Shown here: positions 1-38,660 of the stretch, in pieces
Numbering within the stretch: position 1 is the stretch's first letter
Layout: each line of letters starts with the position of its first letter
Source: Candidatus Pacearchaeota archaeon
GTDB taxonomy: Archaea; Nanobdellota; Nanobdellia; Pacearchaeales; GW2011-AR1
DNA length: 38,660 nt
NCBI GenBank assembly: GCA_019659125.1
Contig: JAIFVX010000001.1
Span: 79,437-118,096 of the forward strand
Direction of reading: 5' to 3'
The notes under the pieces: model-generated
Seen by the model: the letters and a program-made list of their open reading frames with translations, nothing else
Told to the model about the DNA's origin: nothing
Database searches by the model: none
Translations under genes and position numbers: made by a program

Positions 1-271
1 ATTGTCCGGGAGCTTGCTCGTCCATTACCTTGAGAAGCAACATTCTGCATGCCTCCAAGGCATTGTCTCGAATCTGAACGCCTTCCTCTGAAATAAGCGA
101 TAAAGCAAAGGGATATGCTCCCTGATCATATGCCTTCTGGTCGCCCATATGGAACTTGACAATCTTCTGCCCAGGGACGGTCTTAATATATGCCTTGCTC
201 TTGCTTCTCGAATTCCGTGTATATGGCCTCGCAGGCTTCTTAGAATATGCTAATGCTTTTCGAAATGCCAT
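1..271 (-). CDS. rpl10e: Ribosomal protein L10e (uL16 family), 3' part outside window
   Basis: Large-subunit ribosomal protein of the L16/L10e family, which helps shape the A-site tRNA and GTPase-factor region of the ribosome. Translating the minus strand from the ATG at 269-271 gives a protein starting MAFRKALAYSKKPARPYTR. It continues through KIVKFHMGD and EEGVQIRDNALEACRMLL, which matches the archaeal L10e pattern in which NALEA is well conserved. Only about the first 90 residues are inside the window; the rest lies before base 1. The start overlaps the stop of the upstream L35Ae gene by one base (TAATG), so the two are probably co-transcribed and translationally coupled. Confidence 0.9.
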   Translation of the reverse strand, partial: MAFRKALAYSKKPARPYTRNSRSKSKAYIKTVPGQKIVKFHMGDQKAYDQGAYPFALSLISEEGVQIRDNALEACRMLLLKVMDEQAPGQ

Positions 272-540
272 TATTTCTTTGCTCCTTCATGCACTTCAAT
301 CTCAGTGGTGATAGCCTGTCCTGGCAATCCAGTCTCAAAGATAGCTCGTACAAGGCCCTTATTGCCATGCGCATCGCTGATCTTTCCATGTAATATCTTT
401 CCAGCAGGGCTCTTCCAGGTTACCTGCTTGCCAACAAGCTTCTTTGCATCTTCTCTGCTTGTAGCTCCAAGATCAAGCAAATAATGCTTTTCATGTAAAC
501 TATGTCTTCCTCGTCTGAATTGTACAACAATGCCTTTCAT
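271..540 (-). CDS. rpl35ae: Ribosomal protein L35Ae (eL33)
   Basis: Archaeal/eukaryotic-type large-subunit protein. The 89-residue product starts MKGIVVQFRRGRH and contains GKQVTWKSPAGK, HGNKGLVRAIFE and GLPGQA, all typical of the family in order and spacing. An ATG two codons upstream (546) is possible. I chose 540 because family members begin MKG, and because the TATA-like box at 561-570 is centred about 26 bases before it, the spacing seen at most promoters in this window. It is followed directly by L10e with a one-base stop/start overlap. Confidence 0.9.
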   Translation of the reverse strand: MKGIVVQFRRGRHSLHEKHYLLDLGATSREDAKKLVGKQVTWKSPAGKILHGKISDAHGNKGLVRAIFETGLPGQAITTEIEVHEGAKK

Positions 541-560
541 ATTCATCCCTGGAATTGAGG

Positions 561-581: not shown

Positions 582-1331
582 TTATGTAATGTAATTGCCA
601 AAGCAGTGTGGAGGAGGATTTTGACCTTGATCTTGCTCTTTTGCATATTGAGCAGCGAGATCAATATAATCGGAAATGCTGACCGTTCCGTCTCGGTTAA
701 TATCAGCATTGTTACACCATGTGGGAGCACTGCAACCATCGTTGTTATATTGAGCACGGAATATATTAAGATCGTCTGCTCTCACATGGTTGTCCCTGTT
801 TATGTCAGCCCCACAGCACCATTCACCAGAAATATAAGGTATATTGTTGCAGTCAGTCTTTTTTCTCTCATCATCAGTCAGCTCATGATTGCCAAGTGTC
901 TTTCCCGTAATAGGTTGGCCCGTGTTAGGATTCGTAATAAGCGGGGCCAAAATGATCTTTTTCAAGGAATTAATGCTTCCACTATAATCAATAACGACTA
1001 CTGCAGTCTCAAACTCCTTCATAGCTTTAGTTTCATAATCTCTAAATACCTTCCTGGTTCCATCAAAACCTTCTAGAACAACATCAAATCCCACAACCTC
1101 TCCAGGTCCTGACTCTCTCTTGACCATGAATGTAGTAACCTTTGCATTCGTATAATCAATAACTGTTCCCCGGACAATGATAAGAGAGGAAATCAATGAC
1201 TCTGTCTCAATGGATTGGGCGCTTTTTTTTAAGGCAGGTTGCAAAAACGCCCAGACAAGGACAATAGCCGCGAGAACAAGCAGTATAACGAGCACTGTCG
1301 TGACGACATCGCTCAATCCTCTTTTTGACAT
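582..1331 (-). CDS. Type IV pilin-like protein with C-terminal dockerin repeats
   Basis: 249 residues. The N-terminus MSKRGLSDVV followed by a hydrophobic helix (about 8-28) is an archaeal class III signal peptide with likely cleavage after Gly5, as in proteins processed by PibD/FlaK-type prepilin peptidase. A beta-rich pilin core follows to about 145. The C-terminal part holds two dockerin-like calcium-binding repeats, GADINRDNHVRADDLNIF (174-191) and NADINRDGTVSISDYIDLAA (208-227), with Cys residues between them. An earlier start is possible, but the ATG at 1331 has GAGG before it and a TATA-like box (1352-1360) about 25 bases upstream. The next gene is a paralogue with the same N-terminal half. 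Role: probably a surface filament subunit or a surface protein anchored by its pilin helix. A partner for the dockerin is not visible here. Confidence 0.82.
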   Translation of the reverse strand: MSKRGLSDVVTTVLVILLVLAAIVLVWAFLQPALKKSAQSIETESLISSLIIVRGTVIDYTNAKVTTFMVKRESGPGEVVGFDVVLEGFDGTRKVFRDYETKAMKEFETAVVVIDYSGSINSLKKIILAPLITNPNTGQPITGKTLGNHELTDDERKKTDCNNIPYISGEWCCGADINRDNHVRADDLNIFRAQYNNDGCSAPTWCNNADINRDGTVSISDYIDLAAQYAKEQDQGQNPPPHCFGNYIT

Positions 1332-1391
1332 TTCCTCTAATATGCAAGCGTCTTTATAAATATGGTGAAACACATATGGGTGGATTTACTA

Positions 1392-2192
1392 TCAACCGGA
1401 CCCGGGCGGATTGCAATCGGTCTCTGACGTACATGAAAGGCACGCCTTAGTTCCTGTGAAAGAAAGGCCAGTTCCTTGATCTATACCAGTGCACGAGATA
1501 GTACCACTGTAGTCGCACACTTCTGGTCCATTAACAACCCCATCACCACATCTCTGAGTAGTTGTGCATGAGTTGTATCCTGTACAGTCAGACTTGCAGG
1601 TCTGCGTTCCTGAATACCCGCCGGTTGTAGTACATGATTGAGAACCGCCATCACAGACTTCGTTGCCTTCACGCACACCGTTGCCGCACACTGAAGGACT
1701 CCCACCGCCTCCAGAGCTGCTTCCAGTTCCCGTTCCGGAACTAACAGTAGTAATGCTAGGGATCTTTCCAGTGATTATCTTCCCTGTCTGAGAGTTTTTG
1801 ACCAAAGGAACAAGAAGGATTTTCTTGATGGATGAAAGAGAGGTGTAATTCACGCTTACGCGAGCCGTTTCAAAAGCCTTCAGTGCAGTCGACTCGTAAT
1901 TAGTAAACTTCTTGGTGTTTCCAGAGGCATCCTCAAGTATCACGTCAAAGCCTACCACTTCCTCACTACCGGCATTTTTCTTGACAATGAATGAAATGTT
2001 TGAGGTCGAAGTATTGTCAGAAATGCTCTTCGATACCACGACAAGAACGGCCGTCAGGGAGTTTGTCTCTACCTGCTCTCCCGCACTACGTATGCTAGGA
2101 GCCGTGAATTTCCACACAATTACGATTGCCGCCAAAACAAGAAGTATGATAAGAACAGTGGTGACGACATCGCTTAAACCCCTCTTAGACAT
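1392..2192 (-). CDS. Type IV pilin-like protein with C-terminal Cys-rich repeats
   Basis: 266 residues. The first 145 or so are clearly paralogous to the downstream pilin: MSKRGLSDVVTTVL signal, then VVGFDV, FETA and SIKKILLVPLV at matching positions. After a Ser/Gly linker (about 151-165) the C-terminus is Cys-rich, with two units beginning CGNGVREGNEVCD (169-181) and CGDGVVNGPEVCD (215-227). These resemble DUF4215/myxococcus-type disulfide repeats found in surface proteins. The ATG at 2192 is preceded by GATAGGA and by a TTTATAAAT box centred about 25 bases upstream; the GTG at 2201 is a less likely start. Likely an exported pilin or filament-associated adhesin. Disulfides would suit the DsbA-like protein at 32462. 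Confidence 0.8.
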   Translation of the reverse strand: MSKRGLSDVVTTVLIILLVLAAIVIVWKFTAPSIRSAGEQVETNSLTAVLVVVSKSISDNTSTSNISFIVKKNAGSEEVVGFDVILEDASGNTKKFTNYESTALKAFETARVSVNYTSLSSIKKILLVPLVKNSQTGKIITGKIPSITTVSSGTGTGSSSGGGGSPSVCGNGVREGNEVCDGGSQSCTTTGGYSGTQTCKSDCTGYNSCTTTQRCGDGVVNGPEVCDYSGTISCTGIDQGTGLSFTGTKACLSCTSETDCNPPGSG

Positions 2193-2228: not shown

Positions 2229-4004
2229 TTAAAACAAGATATCAAAATTGCCCAGTTCTTTCTTGAGCATGACAATCGTCTCACCAGACAATGACAGCTT
2301 TGTCCTATCCTTGGTCTTTGCCAGTGCCTCTTCAAGTTCCTTTCTGTCTGAAGCATGAAGCTTTCCATTATGTAGTTTTTGCACTCCCTGTGCGCTAGCC
2401 ACAAATAAACCTGCATCCGTTAAAACAAGATCTGCTTTCATACCATTGTAGGATATCTGGACAATTCCTTTTTCCATAACGGCAAATTCTTTTCTTTGGG
2501 AGTATTCAATGAGTCCTGCAAGAAGATCGGTTGCATCCCTGCTTAAGCTTTGGAGTTCATTCTGGTTCAGTTTCTTCCCCTTTGTCTTCTTCTTGACATC
2601 CAAGATCTGATGAGCAATACTCTTCATTCGAGGATGCAGTTTTCCCGTTTTAATGAGCTTTGTTTCCAATTCCCTAACGAGATCCTCTTCTTTCTTATCC
2701 CCGAACAAGTTCTTTAGGAGAGAAAAGACATCTGAATGGATCTTCTCAGCAAGGTGCTCCTGCAAGCGCGCTTCCAGTTTCTCTCGCAACTGCTTCATCT
2801 TCTTGACATACTCTTCAGATTCATGCATAAGAACATCAACTTCCTTCCCTGAGATGGCAGTTAGCTTTCCATGCTCATAATCCTTGTATAATCCAACAAC
2901 CTTCTCAAGAGTCTTAAGTGTATTCAGATCCATGATTTTTTCCTTGTCAACAAACAGCTTCTTGACGTCAGCAACGACCGTCTTTGGAACTGGTGGTGCT
3001 TCACCCGCTAACATCATGAGTGCTTGCGTAGGAGTAATGATTCCCCAATAAATATCAACCATTGCATCCAACAATCTTCGTTTTACCATGGAGTCAGTTT
3101 GATCACCAGACTTCATGAACATGTCAACAGCCTCGGGACTTGGCTTGATCTTTCCCATTTTCAACAATAATTTCCACGGGATGAAGGTTCCCCGATCATA
3201 GAATGGAATTCCATCTCGGATGAACGTGAACATGACAGGATGAGCATCCTTGACAGACTGCCAGAAATCAGTCAGTAAATAGACTTGTACATTAAGGATA
3301 TTCTTCACGCCTGCGAGAGCAGATGCCTCTCTGATATAATCGTGAATAATACCTCGCAATTTCTCAAGCAGTTCGATCCTGCTCATTCTCTTGACATCCG
3401 TATCATCAATAATGACAAAAGTATCAACATCACTATCCTTTCCAGCAGTTCCACGAACAAGACTGCCTCCAATAACGTAGCTAGCGACATATTTCTCAAA
3501 CTTTCGCAAGACGAGAGACTTGTGGATGCTTGCAACTCTCAATGCCCCCAAAAATCCTTTATCATGGAGGGGGAAACTTGCAGAAACAGCATCAAGAAAC
3601 TCATACTTGCTGTCAAGTCCATAATTCCATAAGTCTATGGGGGTCTTGACATGGAGCCATGCATTCTCCTTAGTATCCTTCAGCATCTTCACTGCCTCTG
3701 GCTTTATCTTTGCCAAGTTCTTATAGTGGTCCTCAGGAATGATCATAATCAAGTGTAAGGGTTTCGCTGCAGCTACTTCCTTGGGTATTTGTTCATCTTC
3801 TTCAAACAAAGGAGAGGCAGTTGCAGGTATAAGGCCGAGAGCCATAGTAAACGGATACTTCTTGATCAATGCTTTCTTAAAATTCTCAAATTTATCCCGA
3901 AGCTTCTCGATCTCACTCAAGGTAGGCTGATGTTGTGTAGGTTCTGGCTTGTCATACTTTCTCGAAGAAATCTCACCCGTAAGACCTTTGTTCTTATCAT
4001 CCAT
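2229..4004 (-). CDS. Large nucleotidyltransferase-fold protein of unknown role
   Basis: 591 residues, no signal peptide. Residues 179-198 carry a Pol-beta-type nucleotidyltransferase signature: G-S, ten residues, then D-V-D (Asp192, Asp194), in the context GGSLVRGTAGKDSDVDTFVI. In this fold the two Asp bind metal. The third carboxylate expected in a later strand is not obvious, since the likely strand NVQVYLLTDFW has Gln. The surrounding regions are helical and charged: an N-terminal part of about 170 residues and a long Lys/Glu-rich middle (380-530) with coiled-coil character. Substrate unknown. TATA-like box at 4025-4034. The gene diverges from 4110. Confidence 0.72.
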   Translation of the reverse strand: MDDKNKGLTGEISSRKYDKPEPTQHQPTLSEIEKLRDKFENFKKALIKKYPFTMALGLIPATASPLFEEDEQIPKEVAAAKPLHLIMIIPEDHYKNLAKIKPEAVKMLKDTKENAWLHVKTPIDLWNYGLDSKYEFLDAVSASFPLHDKGFLGALRVASIHKSLVLRKFEKYVASYVIGGSLVRGTAGKDSDVDTFVIIDDTDVKRMSRIELLEKLRGIIHDYIREASALAGVKNILNVQVYLLTDFWQSVKDAHPVMFTFIRDGIPFYDRGTFIPWKLLLKMGKIKPSPEAVDMFMKSGDQTDSMVKRRLLDAMVDIYWGIITPTQALMMLAGEAPPVPKTVVADVKKLFVDKEKIMDLNTLKTLEKVVGLYKDYEHGKLTAISGKEVDVLMHESEEYVKKMKQLREKLEARLQEHLAEKIHSDVFSLLKNLFGDKKEEDLVRELETKLIKTGKLHPRMKSIAHQILDVKKKTKGKKLNQNELQSLSRDATDLLAGLIEYSQRKEFAVMEKGIVQISYNGMKADLVLTDAGLFVASAQGVQKLHNGKLHASDRKELEEALAKTKDRTKLSLSGETIVMLKKELGNFDILF

Positions 4005-5947: not shown

Positions 5948-7138
5948 ATGAAAATCATGGATTTGTACAACAAGCAGGGAATGTTCGATACAACAGTAAG
6001 AAACATACAAAAGTCGCCAAACATCCTTTCTGAAAACAAAAAGACCATTCTTCGGTTTATAGATCACTTGAGAAGTGAAAACATAAGCATAGCAAGGATC
6101 ACTCGCTGCCTCTTTGATCTGAAGAGATATGACCGTTTACTCAGTAAACCCTTCCAGGAAGCCAATAAAGACGATATACGAAGGGTTGTAGGAGAAGTTA
6201 ATGGATCTCCATTAAGTGAGGCAAGCAAGAAAGAGATGAAGCTTATGATACGAAAGGTCCATTGTTTTATCAAAGGAGTTGAAGGGAAGGATTATCCTGA
6301 AGAGGTGAAATGGATATCTCTAAGAATGCCTTCCAATCATAAGAAACTGCCTGAAGAGCTTCTGACCGAAGAAGAAATACAGGCGCTCGTACGAGGATGT
6401 ACGAATACTCGTGATAAAGCATTAATCATGACTCTTGCAGAATCAGGTTGTAGAGTATCGGAGATAGGCACGAGGCAGATCAAGCATATCTCATTCGAAG
6501 AATATGGCACTCGGATAACAGTAGATGGGAAGACGGGAATGAGAAAGATCCTTGTCATTCACAGCACTCCATACTTACAAGAATGGATCAATAACCATCC
6601 ACATAATGATGATCCAGAAGCTGCTCTATGGTATAATCCTCAAAAGAGTGAGTTCCTGTGCTATGCCCGAATATCTCATATCTTGAAGGGAGCTGCAAAG
6701 AAAGCGAGAATAAAGAAGAAGGTCCATCTCCACCTCTTACGGCATTCAAGGGCCACTCAACTTGCATCAGTCATGTCCGACGCCCAACTCAAAACATATT
6801 TGGGATGGACTGCAGGCTCAAAAATGGCTAGTACCTATATCCACATGTCTGGAAAAGACACGGATAGTGCATTACTAAAGGCAAGTGGTATAGAAATAAA
6901 GAGGGAACATGAAAAACCTCTGCTTCAAAGCACACTATGTCTACGATGCAAAAGCAACAATAAAGGTACTAATCGCTGTTGCTATCATTGTGGCTTTATC
7001 TTAGATAACGAAGCAGCCAAGGAGGTCCTTGTGCAAGACACTAACCAAAAAGACATGAACCACGCCTTGGACATCCTCATTAGAGATCCCGAAGTTCTTA
7101 CTCTTCTTACACGCAAACTCAAGGAGCTTCGAGCATGA
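5948..7138 (+). CDS. Tyrosine recombinase/integrase with C-terminal zinc ribbon
   Basis: 396 residues, phage-integrase superfamily. An N-terminal helical SAM-like core-binding domain (about 15-120) is followed by the catalytic domain. ESGCRVSEIG carries the first catalytic Arg (about 169). HLHLLRHSRAT (about 263-273) holds the H-x-x-R pair, and GWTAGSKMASTYIHMSG carries the nucleophilic Tyr. After the catalytic domain, CLRCKSNNKGTNRCCYHCG (about 328-346) is a probable zinc ribbon, a common extra in archaeal recombinases. AGAGA precedes the ATG. Its position directly after a tRNA with repeated 3' end fits the integrase of the element. The stop overlaps the ATG at 7135 (ATGA). Confidence 0.93.
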   Translation: MKIMDLYNKQGMFDTTVRNIQKSPNILSENKKTILRFIDHLRSENISIARITRCLFDLKRYDRLLSKPFQEANKDDIRRVVGEVNGSPLSEASKKEMKLMIRKVHCFIKGVEGKDYPEEVKWISLRMPSNHKKLPEELLTEEEIQALVRGCTNTRDKALIMTLAESGCRVSEIGTRQIKHISFEEYGTRITVDGKTGMRKILVIHSTPYLQEWINNHPHNDDPEAALWYNPQKSEFLCYARISHILKGAAKKARIKKKVHLHLLRHSRATQLASVMSDAQLKTYLGWTAGSKMASTYIHMSGKDTDSALLKASGIEIKREHEKPLLQSTLCLRCKSNNKGTNRCCYHCGFILDNEAAKEVLVQDTNQKDMNHALDILIRDPEVLTLLTRKLKELRA

Positions 7139-9893: not shown

Positions 9894-9901
9894 GGCTTGT
9901 G

Positions 9902-9913
9902 CGGCTTGCGCAT
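9902..9913 (+). repeat. Right attachment repeat (attR core)
   Basis: CGGCTTGCGCAT, exact copy of 5881-5892. It ends 36 bases before the start of the LamG gene, so the native promoter of that gene probably begins at the element boundary. Confidence 0.75.
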
Positions 9914-9949
9914 ATTTTAAGTATTTCATTGCATTCATATGTTTATTCC

Positions 9950-10627
9950 ATGGATTCATTAGTTGGTTACTGGCCGTTGAAAGAGAACGCTCAAGATGAA
10001 CAGGGAAATCATCATGGAAGAGAGGAGGATATCAAATATGTCTCAGATGAGAAATTTGGATCATGCGCATTCTTCAATGGCTCTTCATATATAGAAATTC
10101 CGAATAGTAAGGACTTCAGTGTCTCAGAAAAAGGCCTTACTGTTTCCGTATGGATCTCTCCCTCCACGCTTAATTTCACAAATTCAGAAAAGGAATATGT
10201 CCATTTTCTAGGGAAGGGAGATAAGGAAAATCATGAGTGGACATTCAGGATGTACAATAATAATTCAGAACGACCTAATAGACTATCATTCTATGTATTT
10301 AACCTTGAAGGAGGCCTTGGTGCAGGTAGTTATGTGCAGAAGACTGTAAAACAAAATGAATGGATTCATCTTGTTGGAATTATTGATGATAGGTTCATCT
10401 ATCTCTATAAGAATGGCGTGTTGCAAAAGGTAGAGGATTATCATCAGGCAGCCATTCCAAGTCGGGGAGAAATTATCGATATCTATCCAGAGCACGGAAG
10501 CGCTCCGGTACGAATAGGAACACGGGATCTCCACAGCTTTTTTGAAGGAAAAATGGCGGATCTTAGAATTTATAATTCTCCCATTTCGGAGAAAGAAGTC
10601 ATAGAGTTGTATAAAAATAAAAACTAA
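9950..10627 (+). CDS. LamG/concanavalin-A-like domain protein
   Basis: 225 residues, essentially one LamG-type beta-sandwich. It opens with MDSLVGYWPLKENAQDEQGN and continues with GSCAFFNGSSYIEIPNS, LTVSVWISPS, EWIHLVGIIDDRFIYLYKNG and MADLRIYNSPISEKEVIELY, the characteristic series of this fold. Such domains bind carbohydrate or protein. No signal peptide is present from the chosen ATG. The frame also runs back into the attachment site with a GTG at 9899, but the LamG fold starts at 9950. A TATTTTAAG run lies about 32 bases upstream. Outside the element, immediately to its right. Confidence 0.8.
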   Translation: MDSLVGYWPLKENAQDEQGNHHGREEDIKYVSDEKFGSCAFFNGSSYIEIPNSKDFSVSEKGLTVSVWISPSTLNFTNSEKEYVHFLGKGDKENHEWTFRMYNNNSERPNRLSFYVFNLEGGLGAGSYVQKTVKQNEWIHLVGIIDDRFIYLYKNGVLQKVEDYHQAAIPSRGEIIDIYPEHGSAPVRIGTRDLHSFFEGKMADLRIYNSPISEKEVIELYKNKN

Positions 10628-34444: not shown

Positions 34445-36973
34445 CTAAGCATCGAGCGTCTGCTGGCTAGGCGCTTCTGCCAGAGGGACTTTTGCTACGC
34501 TTACAACTCGATCTCCATCTTTCAATTTCACAACGTGAACGCCTTGTGTTGCTCTACCCATGACTCTCAATTCCTTCATATTGGTTCGCAAAACCATTCC
34601 CTTTGTGGTTGTCGCAATGACTGAATCCTGGTTGTCAACGGAAAGGGAAGCAATGACGTCCCCTGTCTTGTCAGTGGTCTTCAAGTTGATAACCCCTTTC
34701 CCTCCTCGCGATGTCTTTCTGTACTCCTCAAGGTCTGAACGCTTTCCAAACCCTTTTGTCGTGATGGTCAAGATTGTTGTCTTACCATCTAAAGGAAGGG
34801 ATTCAAGAGAGACAACCTGGTCTTTTCCATCAAGTTCTATTCCCTTAACTCCGTAACTTGACCTTCCCATAGGTCGAACCTCATCAGAGTTGAATCGTAT
34901 TGCCTGTCCATCCTTCGTGATGAGAAGAACTTCCTGCTTGTCAGCAACTCTCTCGACATTGATGATAGAGTCGGAATTGTCCATGGGCAAGTTGATGACT
35001 CGTATGCCTGTGCTTCGTGGCTTTGACAAGTCCTTCAAAGGAAGCTTCTTGACCAATCCAAGTTTTGTGGCAAACATGACATATCCTGATTCAAAATCAG
35101 TTAAGGGCATGACATTTGCAATCTTTTCCTCTCGTAAGTCAAGAACATTGATGATTGCCTTTCCCTTGCTCTGCCGTTCGCTTGCAGGAACATCATGCGC
35201 CTTAAGCCAATAGACTCTTCCTCGTGACGTGAAGAACATAAGATAGTCATGGGTGGAACAGGTAATAAGTATCTTTACAAAGTCCTCTTCCTTCAAGTCA
35301 GTGCCAGTAACTCCAGCACCTCCCCGTTTCTGCTCTCTATAGGTCTTCATATCAACTCTCTTCAAGTATCCTGATTCGGTGATCATGACAACAACGTCCT
35401 TCTTTTCAATCAAGTCCTGCTCGGTAATCTCATCAACCCTCTTCAATATCTTTGTCCTTCGCTCATCACCATATTTCCTCTTCAGCTCATTTACTTCCTG
35501 TTTGATGATCTTAAGAATCTCCTTCTCATCGCCCAAGATTGTCCTTAGTTCGCTAATAAGTTCCTTAAGCTTCTTTTCTTCATCCTTGAGCTTTCCAGCT
35601 TCAAGATGGGTAAGCTGTTGCAGTCGTATCTCAAGGACTGCCTTGGCTTGCCTATCAGTCAAGTCAAATTTCTTCATCAATCCGTCATGAGCGGTGCTTG
35701 CAGTATCAGATTTCTTTATGAATTCCACAACCTTGTCGATATCCTTGAGTGCAATAAGCAATCCAAGAACTATCTCAATTCTATCCTCAGCTTTCTTAAG
35801 GTCGAACTTAGTCCTATTACGTACGATAAGCTGTCTATACTTGACATATTCCTCGATAATATTCTTAAGATTCAGCACTCGTGGTTGCTTTCCAACAAGC
35901 GCAAGAAGATTTGCATCAAAGCTTGTCTGCAAGTTTGTCATCTTATAGAGCTTATTCAAGGTAAATTTAGGATCAACTTCTTTCTTGAGTTCAATGACGA
36001 TGCGTACTTTCCCTTTTGCAGATTCATCCCGTAAGTCAGAGACATCAGGAAGTTTCTTCTCGGTTGATAATCGAGCGATATCCTTGACAAGATCGGACTT
36101 ATTGACCATGTAGGGTATTTCCGTGATGATAATCCATGTTTTCCCTTTATGCTCCTCGGTGGTCGTCTTTCCTCTAACAATGATCTTTCCCTTTCCTGTC
36201 TTGTACATATCTTTGATCCCGCTTCCAGTAATCAATCCTCCTGTAGGAAAGTCAGGACCCTTTACGATCTCTGCCAGCTCATCAATGGTTACATTCGGCT
36301 TCTGGATGTACTCAATAATGCCATCACACACTTCAACAAGATTATGAGGAGGAATGTTGGTAGCCATTCCAACGGCAATGCCAGTAGCTCCATTCAAAAG
36401 AAGATTAGGGAGAGCTGCAGGAAGAGTTTCAGGCTCCTTGAGGGAGTTATCATAGTTAGGAAGCATCTTGACAGTATCCTTGTCGACATCTGATAATAAT
36501 TCGCTTGAAATCTTGCTGAGTTTAGCTTCAGTATAACGATCAGCGGCTGCAGAGTCCCCATCCAGGGATCCAAGATTACCCTGTCCGTGAACGAGAGGAT
36601 ACCGTAATGAGAAATCCTGAGCCATACGGACAAGAGCATCATACACGGCAAGGTTACCATGAGGGTGAAACTTACCCATAGTATCTCCAACAATACGAGC
36701 AGATTTGATGGTAGCTTTCGATGGTTCAAGCCCTAAAAGACTCATTGCCCATAAGATTCTTCGATGAACTGGCTTCAATCCATCTTCAACCGAAGGCAAG
36801 GCCCTCTGGACAATGACTGACATGGCATAGTCGATATATGCCTTCTCCATTTCCTCAACAATTTCAGTGCCGATGACTCCTTTCTCATTTCCAAGTTGGG
36901 ATTTCTCTCGTCTCTTCTCCTCTTCCTTAAGGATTTCCTTTTCTACTGCATCCTCATCATCAGGTTTACTCAT
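34445..36973 (-). CDS. gyrA: DNA gyrase subunit A
   Basis: 842 residues. With GyrB it introduces negative supercoils using ATP; GyrA cuts and rejoins DNA. After a charged N-terminal extension (about 1-33) come the breakage-reunion domain with [12 protein letters not shown] and the catalytic Tyr147 in [12 protein letters not shown], the coiled coil (about 385-500), and the C-terminal beta-pinwheel. The pinwheel starts with the GyrA box QKRGGAG (548-554), which marks gyrase rather than topoisomerase IV. The residue matching E. coli Ser83 is Leu. ATG 36973 or 36976 overlaps the stop of the zinc-ribbon gene. Third gene of the gyrB operon. Confidence 0.97.
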
Positions 36974-37200
36974 CATCTCTTCACCTTCTTGGTTTTTTTC
37001 ACAGCTTTCTTTTTCGCTAATTTTTTAACAAGCTTCTTTATAGGTTCCTCATCCATCTCTTCATCAAGCGCATCGCTTTCCTTGCTGATTGAGGTTTTAT
37101 CAGAATAACCGCATTCCCTACAAATCATATAGACTCCAGATCCTCCAGGCATCATATCAACCTGATCGCTGCCACATTCAGGGCACATTTCCTCGCTCAT
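36973..37200 (-). CDS. Zinc-ribbon protein with Lys-rich tail, between gyrB and gyrA
   Basis: 75 residues. N-terminal zinc ribbon: CPECGSDQ (Cys6, Cys9) and CRECGYSD (Cys27, Cys30), the form seen in many archaeal DNA/RNA-binding proteins. An acidic linker follows (about 41-52), then a Lys-rich tail ([21 protein letters not shown]) like that of histone-H1-type or nucleoid proteins. It overlaps gyrB (ATGA) and gyrA at both ends, so all three are translated as a unit. A role with gyrase on DNA is inferred from position and charge only. Confidence 0.78.
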
Positions 37201-38660
37201 ATGTCCACCATGGCTTCTTTGGCCCGTTCTGCAATGAACTGTCTTCGTGGCTCAACATCGTCACCCATAAGCTTTGAGAATACTTCATTTGCTTTAACTG
37301 CATCTTCGATGGTGACTTTCTTCAAGAGCCGTGCTTTGGGATCCATGGTTGTCTCCCATAACTGGTCTGCATTCATTTCTCCCAACCCCTTGAACCGAAG
37401 AACCTCTGCACTGCCCCCAAGCTTTGCAATGAGCTCTTTGAGCTCCTCATCTGAAAAGACATAATGGTCTTTTCTCTTCCTCACTCTATACAAAGGTGAT
37501 ACTGCAATGTAGATATTTCCATTCTTAATTAAGTCTGGCATGAATCTAAAGAAGAATGTCAATAACAAGGTCCTAATGTGTGCTCCATCCACGTCTGCAT
37601 CAGTCATGATAATGACTTTAGAGTATCTCAGTTTTGTTGGGTCCATCTGCTCTCCTATGCCTACTCCAATAGCAGTGATAAGATTGGAAATTTCCTCATT
37701 GGAAAGCACTTTGATAGGGTTTGCCTTCTCTACATTCAAAATCTTTCCTTTCAAAGGAAGGATTGCCTGGAACTCCTTATTTCGTGCAGACTTCGCACTT
37801 CCTCCTGCAGACTCTCCCTCAACCAAATATAATTCAGTATTCTCGCTGCTCTTAGCGGAACAGTCAGCAAGTTTTCCAGGGAGTCCTCCAAGGCCAAAGG
37901 CGCTCTTTCTTCGCACAAGGTCCTTTGCCTTTTTGGCCGCATTCCGTGCTTTCTGCGCTTCCATTGCCTTCATGACCACTCTCTTAGCGATGGCAGGATT
38001 TTCCTCGAAGAACATGATGAGTGAATTCATCGTGACGCTATCAACAATCCCCTTGATTTCGCTGTTTCCAAGCTTTGTCTTTGTCTGTCCTTCAAACTGA
38101 GGCTCAGGGACTTTTACAGAAATGACTGCAGTCAATCCCTCTCGCACATCATCTCCCGTAAGATTCTCATCCTTGATCATCTTATTCTTGTTGGCATAGT
38201 CATTGATTGCCCTCGTTAATGCTGACTTGAATCCAACAACATGGGTCCCGCCTTCGACAGTGTTGATAGTATTGACAAAACTCAAGACATTCTCTTGATA
38301 TCCATCATTATACTGCACAGATCCCTCGACAACAACATTGGATTCCTGTTTAATGAAGTAAATAGGCTTGTGAAGGGTCTCCTTTCCCGTGTTTGCCCAT
38401 TTGACGAACTCAACAAGTCCACCCTCATAAAAGAATTCTTCCTTCTTCTTGCTTGCTTCATCAGTTAACATGATTCTCAATCCCTTGTTAAGGAATGCAA
38501 TTTCTCTAAATCGTGTCTCAAGTGTTGAGAAGTCAAACTTTGTTGTTGAGAAAATGGTGTCATCAGGATAGAAAGTAACAGTAGTCCCTCGCTCTCCTTT
38601 CTCCGCATCACCAAGAACCTTCATGTCATGTGCAGGCTTGCCAATCTTGTACTCTTGCTG
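37197..38660 (-). CDS. gyrB: DNA gyrase subunit B, 5' end outside window
   Basis: About 487 residues are visible; the frame stays open to the window edge with typical upstream sequence (QEYKIGKPAHDMKVL), so the internal ATG at 38624 is not the start. Present are the second part of the ATPase/transducer region (TTVTFYPDDTIF) and the TOPRIM domain with EGESAGGSAKSARN and MTDADVDGAHIRTLLLTFFF. The C-terminus RRQFIAERAKEAM is typical of bacterial-type GyrB. There is no large insertion in the tail. It overlaps the zinc-ribbon gene by four bases (ATGA). Confidence 0.97.
   Translation of the reverse strand, partial: QQEYKIGKPAHDMKVLGDAEKGERGTTVTFYPDDTIFSTTKFDFSTLETRFREIAFLNKGLRIMLTDEASKKKEEFFYEGGLVEFVKWANTGKETLHKPIYFIKQESNVVVEGSVQYNDGYQENVLSFVNTINTVEGGTHVVGFKSALTRAINDYANKNKMIKDENLTGDDVREGLTAVISVKVPEPQFEGQTKTKLGNSEIKGIVDSVTMNSLIMFFEENPAIAKRVVMKAMEAQKARNAAKKAKDLVRRKSAFGLGGLPGKLADCSAKSSENTELYLVEGESAGGSAKSARNKEFQAILPLKGKILNVEKANPIKVLSNEEISNLITAIGVGIGEQMDPTKLRYSKVIIMTDADVDGAHIRTLLLTFFFRFMPDLIKNGNIYIAVSPLYRVRKRKDHYVFSDEELKELIAKLGGSAEVLRFKGLGEMNADQLWETTMDPKARLLKKVTIEDAVKANEVFSKLMGDDVEPRRQFIAERAKEAMVDI

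Follow-up and report, generated by a model that had tools for sequence, protein, structure and literature searches.

Neighbouring pilin genes with unrelated C-terminal modules suggest modular type IV pilins in a Pacearchaeota archaeon

Two adjacent genes of a very small, symbiont-type Candidatus Pacearchaeota archaeon, here called pilA and pilB, encode proteins that have a pilin signal, helix and core in common and differ completely past residue ~145, where pilA continues into a pair of dockerin repeats and pilB into Cys-rich repeats. We consider it probable, at roughly two chances in three, that they are archaeal modular type IV pilins displaying interchangeable adhesion or docking modules. 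The genes lie within a stretch of 38,660 nucleotides (hereafter the window), to which all coordinates refer unless a locus is named.

Results

Two pilin paralogues with a common core

Both genes are on the minus strand, with pilB (1392..2192, 266 aa from ATG) upstream of pilA (582..1331, 249 aa from ATG, beginning MSKRGLSDVV) and 60 bases between them; a longer version of pilA could start from a GTG at 1373. Their N-termini both read MSKRGLSDVVTTVL, a class III (pilin/archaellin) signal. Over 144 N-terminal residues the two proteins align with 53% identity (E 4e-50), or 44% for the core without the helix, the signal, helix and core of pilB being encoded at 1761..2192 (minus strand). The sequence-only reading of this DNA had described neighbouring pilin paralogues with a common signal, helix and core of about 145 residues, one ending in dockerin repeats and the other in Cys-rich repeats, and the alignment, together with the two calcium loops of pilA and the 12-Cys repeats of pilB, bears out that description.

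The pilA class III signal peptide MSKRG (1317..1331, minus strand) scores 20.7 bits with the NCBIfam model TIGR02537, above the cut-off of 20, and pilB scores 14.6, below it. Cleavage is predicted before LSDVV (MSKRG/LSDVVTTVL...), with a hydrophobic helix directly after the signal. Pfam Pilin_N (PF07790), a diagnostic model whose match is not required of every archaeal pilin, was not reported for pilA or pilB and was weak in two sister pilins only; the archaellin/pilin N-terminal domain was matched in 40 of the 61 family members. A profile of seven cores matched a solved archaeal filament subunit (8fk7) with an E value of 6e-4 over positions 1–70, that is, in the N-terminal part only, and matched Iho670 (5kyh) weakly. 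AlphaFold2, run with three sequences, modelled pilA as a helix (residues 4–43) followed by a beta-sandwich (about residues 50–150), with pLDDT mostly 70–86; together the helix and the core, taken to about residue 145, correspond to 897..1322 (minus strand). The structure prediction proposed in the earlier reading thus succeeded for the helix and the beta-sandwich core and failed for the dockerin tail, where pLDDT was below 50 and the sequences were too few. A PDB fold search with the whole pilA model gave no significant pilin match, and the profiles of the bindosome proteins BasC and BasA gave weak matches only.

The genome of the window (808,890 bases in five contigs, 85.6% complete) was examined by searches and sampled stretches. 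It encodes one A24 prepilin peptidase (PF01478), an enzyme on whose presence the sequence-only reading had made its proposal depend, and one cluster in which genes for a T2SSE ATPase and two T2SSF platform proteins occur together with those of two more pilins.

Dockerin pair and Cys-rich repeats

The Cys-flanked dockerin pair of pilA (636..815, minus strand) contains two calcium loops in F-hand repeats, D-I-N-R-D-N-H-V-R-A-D-D (residues 176–187, positions 771–806) and D-I-N-R-D-G-T-V-S-I-S-D (residues 210–221, positions 669–704). Both carry D, N, D and D at ligand positions 1, 3, 5 and 12, which is canonical, so that the earlier concern that these might be generic loops lacking calcium ligands does not apply; position 9 is R in the first loop and S in the second. 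About 20 sister repeats within the genus share these ligands, and in most of them one Cys precedes the loop and a second follows the helix. The Pfam Dockerin_1 scores of pilA straddle the cut-off of 22.9 bits, being 23.7 from the GTG start, 22.3 from the ATG start and 26.2 in a six-frame search. Solved dockerins and EF-hand proteins gave weak sequence matches to the pilA tail.

The pilB tail consists of a Gly/Ser linker and a Cys-rich module (1395..1688, minus strand) with 12 Cys in CGNGVxxGNExCD / CGDGVVNGPEVCD repeats. With TIGR02232 (myxo_disulf_rpt) the repeat scores 16.8 bits against a cut-off of 20.8, although the CGDGxxxxGExCD motif is clear by eye. In other family members the Myxo_disulf_rpt / DUF4215 Cys-rich repeat is matched with E values down to 3.4e-13.

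A family of cores with varied tails

About ten pilin-core matches, the last one weak, are found in the genome of the window, and their tails differ. Besides pilA there is a second dockerin pilin; among the paralogues, a protein of 226 aa has a single Cys-rich unit, one of 152 aa has no tail, one of 784 aa combines a Cys-rich part with a dockerin pair and a long C-terminus, and two have tails of about 650–680 aa with acidic disulfide repeats. The pilin core occurs in 106 of 140 related genomes. LamG forms the tail in nine of the 61 members examined, with Cys-rich, NosD/beta-helix, FN3, C25 peptidase, BNR, dockerin and still other tails among the rest; some cores among the relatives lack any tail, and several relatives have very large tails, the whole proteins reaching 800–1300 aa. 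No relative was found in viral contigs or phage records.

A dockerin on the pilin core is rare, with two lineages in the genus of the window, one in the genus of G041 and one in that of G036. The sequence-only reading had called dockerins on a pilin backbone unusual, which holds as far as rarity goes but not in the sense of uniqueness, given the second example in the same genome and those in G036 and G041. One locus in G041 (L099:1353-5249) encodes a protein that joins a pilin core to a peptidase of the C25 (gingipain) type and to a dockerin repeat. A modular pilin joins a pilin to a domain that is not pilus-specific, and this is the case here, for the dockerin of pilA as well as for LamG, FN3 and the C25 peptidase on its homologues.

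Elsewhere in the window there is a LamG (concanavalin A-like) domain protein with a GTG start (9899–10627, plus strand), and a tyrosine recombinase of the phage integrase family (5948–7138, plus strand) with a C-terminal CxxC...CxxC zinc-ribbon-like motif; two ORFs in the same direction follow the recombinase gene. This archaeal genome also encodes, at 34445–38660 (minus strand), subunits A and B of a bacterial-type DNA gyrase.

An old pair and signs of recent exchange elsewhere

pilB is adjoined by a nucleotidyltransferase-domain protein (2229..4004, minus strand, Pfam PF01909) and pilA by ribosomal protein L35Ae (271..546, minus strand, Pfam PF01247). In a congener the same block occurs in the same order, as VIT1, nucleotidyltransferase, Cys-rich pilin, dockerin pilin, L35Ae and L10e, the VIT1 and L10e of the congener being named by likeness to the genes of the window. 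The comparison across relatives that the earlier reading had suggested therefore finds the pair, its module order and its neighbours all retained. Core identity between the dockerin pilins of the two species is 71%, and tail identity 52%; since this core value is higher than the 53% between pilA and pilB, the pair with its different ends predates the species split. On these comparisons, the tail swap between pilA and pilB is not recent; the pair is old and conserved in the congener.

A tree built from 56 cores nests the pilA clade among Cys-tailed pilins (five rows, support 99/98), apart from the second dockerin lineage. On this tree at least 17 changes of tail type are needed, compared with a mean of 27 when the labels are shuffled, which indicates that tails are partly inherited and often replaced. 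Two gains of the dockerin tail within the genus are favoured by the tree but unproven, as a single origin was not rejected (AU p 0.179).

Two other pairs of paralogous pilins have nearly identical 5′ parts. Those in genome G047 (L066:1820-2926 and L067:1376-2668) are 93.7% identical in DNA over 647 bases, comprising the signal, the core and a Cys linker, after which one continues into LamG and the other into an unrelated domain; one of the genes begins beside a contig end, and a different contig end holds an incomplete third copy. Those in genome G010 (L068:1453-2541 and L069:1152-2222) show 95.9% identity along 612 bases, beginning at codon 3–5 and reaching mid-LamG; their upstream DNA is unrelated and their 3′ parts diverge. 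Such 94–96% identity over 610–650 bases of the 5′ part, with different 3′ ends, points to partial duplication or gene conversion in the recent past. Because the identity is below 100%, a simple chimera of the assembly is unlikely, and at the level of DNA sequence the two pairs, both from incomplete genomes, are direct evidence for partial duplication or module exchange. The module exchange proposed in the sequence-only reading is thus strongly supported on this core across relatives, G047 and G010 included, but not as a recent event between pilA and pilB.

Search for a dockerin partner

The genome encodes at least four more secreted proteins with dockerins, namely two beta-helix proteins, a polysaccharide deacetylase with LamG and a four-repeat protein. 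The search for cohesins that the earlier reading had recommended came out negative, with none in the genome of the window or in that of the congener (both about 86% complete), either by Pfam PF00963 or by a family-specific profile built from the cohesins of relatives; a weak match to the cohesin profile (E 0.01) was in a glycosyltransferase and was discarded. Cohesin matches were obtained in six of the 85 genomes of the same taxonomic family, with one match falling short of the Pfam cut-off, and every one of these six genomes belongs to the 28 that have dockerins (chance 9e-4). Because of this co-occurrence, a cohesin–dockerin pairing probably exists in the lineage. None of the cohesin loci examined has a cohesin on a pilin core. 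Within the genus, the dockerin partner may be absent, may have diverged too far to be recognised, may be encoded in the part of the genome left unsequenced, or may be carried by another cell.

Clusters of cohesin and dockerin proteins were seen in Pacearchaeota-type genomes at L141:2-12110 (G019), L139 and L140; among their products are a protein that has both a cohesin and, at its C-terminus, a dockerin, and a short protein in which a cohesin is accompanied by an N-terminal hydrophobic segment. At about 126–133.5 kb of genome C1 (L021:7451-15423) there are two tandem units, each pairing a secreted dockerin/beta-helix protein with a beta-helix protein that is anchored in the membrane and has an Ig-like domain at its C-terminus, and the congener has a similar dockerin/beta-helix arrangement (L154). 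By neighbourhood, the membrane-anchored beta-helix/Ig-like protein is a possible dockerin receptor. The Ig-like domain was considered as a cohesin analogue and rejected (hhalign probability 3.9%).

Discussion

If pilA and pilB are modular pilins, the class III signal KRG/LSD would be cut by the A24 prepilin peptidase of the genome, and the N-terminal helix would then anchor the protein, either in the membrane or in a pilus assembled by the ATPase/TadC-type machinery that other parts of the genome encode. The beta-sandwich head and, after it, the C-terminal module would be directed outward, the module being the working end of the pilin. A calcium-loaded dockerin pair might dock a further protein, either secreted or on the surface; the Cys-rich repeats, knotted by disulfides, might act as an adhesin or as a rigid spacer.

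Two alternatives concern single steps of this scheme, so that the confidence we give them overlaps with that in the scheme itself. The pilin part might serve only as a membrane anchor or as a bindosome-like scaffold that never forms a pilus, leaving the tails near the cell surface. This is a serious contender, though we lean against it: proteins of 800–1300 aa with very large tails would be awkward as bulk filament subunits, the Sulfolobus bindosome has large substrate-binding proteins that bear class III signals, archaeal pilins can promote adhesion in unassembled form (PMC4371748), and the BasC/BasA profiles do match, if weakly; yet the genome has a dedicated ATPase/platform cluster with pilins, and the core retains the full pilin helix and beta head. 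To much the same degree we doubt, without dismissing it, that the dockerin pair is a calcium- and disulfide-stabilised spacer or cap with no docking role. The lack of a cohesin by Pfam and by the family-specific profile in both species of the genus, the conserved Cys flanking each repeat as in a stabilised mini-domain, and the R at position 9 of the first loop favour such a role. On the other hand, both genomes are only about 86% complete, dockerin pairs common to at least four other secreted proteins are what a common docking code would produce, and the six cohesin genomes of the family all fall among the 28 with dockerins.

A third possibility, ordinary duplication followed by independent decay or drift of the tails with no real module exchange, seems to us improbable. 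It gains something from the age of the pair and from the single dockerin-tail origin that the AU test leaves standing, but the tails are recognisable, unrelated domains, the core tree needs at least 17 tail changes, against a shuffled mean of 27, and pilin parts with 94–96% identical DNA carry unrelated or divergent tails.

Beyond the modular reading of pilA and pilB, a bolder proposal, which we regard as speculative and rather unlikely in its full form, is that the lineage keeps a 5′ pilin cassette that is repeatedly recombined with 3′ modules, yielding combinatorial adhesins and docking proteins. In that case dockerin pilins would serve as ports at which secreted dockerin-binding proteins, or partner cells, are plugged onto the surface by way of a receptor other than a cohesin.

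Little is known of how small symbiont-type archaea attach to their partner cells, and the Nanohaloarchaeota are one DPANN group whose pilin genes went unannotated (PMC9563170). The pilin core described here marks a whole class of modular surface proteins and so provides candidate contact proteins in more than 100 genomes, while the dockerin on a pilin makes the search for a binding partner directly testable.

Among known systems, the bacterial modular type IV pilins, such as PilB and PilC of Streptococcus sanguinis, graft a functional module onto a small pilin module in a great variety of architectures (PMC8179133). The archaeal family resembles them in this grafting and in the recurrence of a LamG/concanavalin-type lectin module, but the bacterial pilins are of the IPR012902 type, whereas those described here belong to the archaellin/pilin type of archaea (TIGR02537), have a beta-sandwich core and include a dockerin among their modules; the text of PMC8179133 mentions neither archaea nor dockerins. 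With the Sulfolobus bindosome the family has in common archaeal pilin-type signals and large functional C-terminal parts, and differs from it in having no substrate-binding domains and a separate core with unrelated tails, in line with the weakness of the BasC/BasA matches. ANME archaea have non-cellulosomal dockerin and cohesin proteins, suggested to attach proteins to the surface (PMC9012536). As there, dockerins occur here on diverse secreted archaeal proteins outside cellulose degradation; ANME archaea, however, have cohesins and carry dockerins on substrate-binding or S-layer proteins, while here the dockerins are on pilins and the genus has no detected cohesin. In the survey of archaeal type IV pilus systems (Makarova et al. 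2016, PMC4858521), large class III proteins are predicted to be adhesins or minor pilins, and the genome of the window resembles the surveyed systems in its ATPase, TadC-type platform and prepilin peptidase and in having pilins encoded apart from the assembly cluster; dockerins and Woesearchaeota are not mentioned there. Neither dockerin pilins nor the present archaeal family are described in the literature searched, in which subscription papers were mostly not included. In principle, then, the arrangement is already known from the modular pilins of bacteria and from the archaeal bindosome, and what appears to be undescribed in that literature is the fusion of a dockerin to a pilin and the breadth of this family in Pacearchaeota-type archaea.
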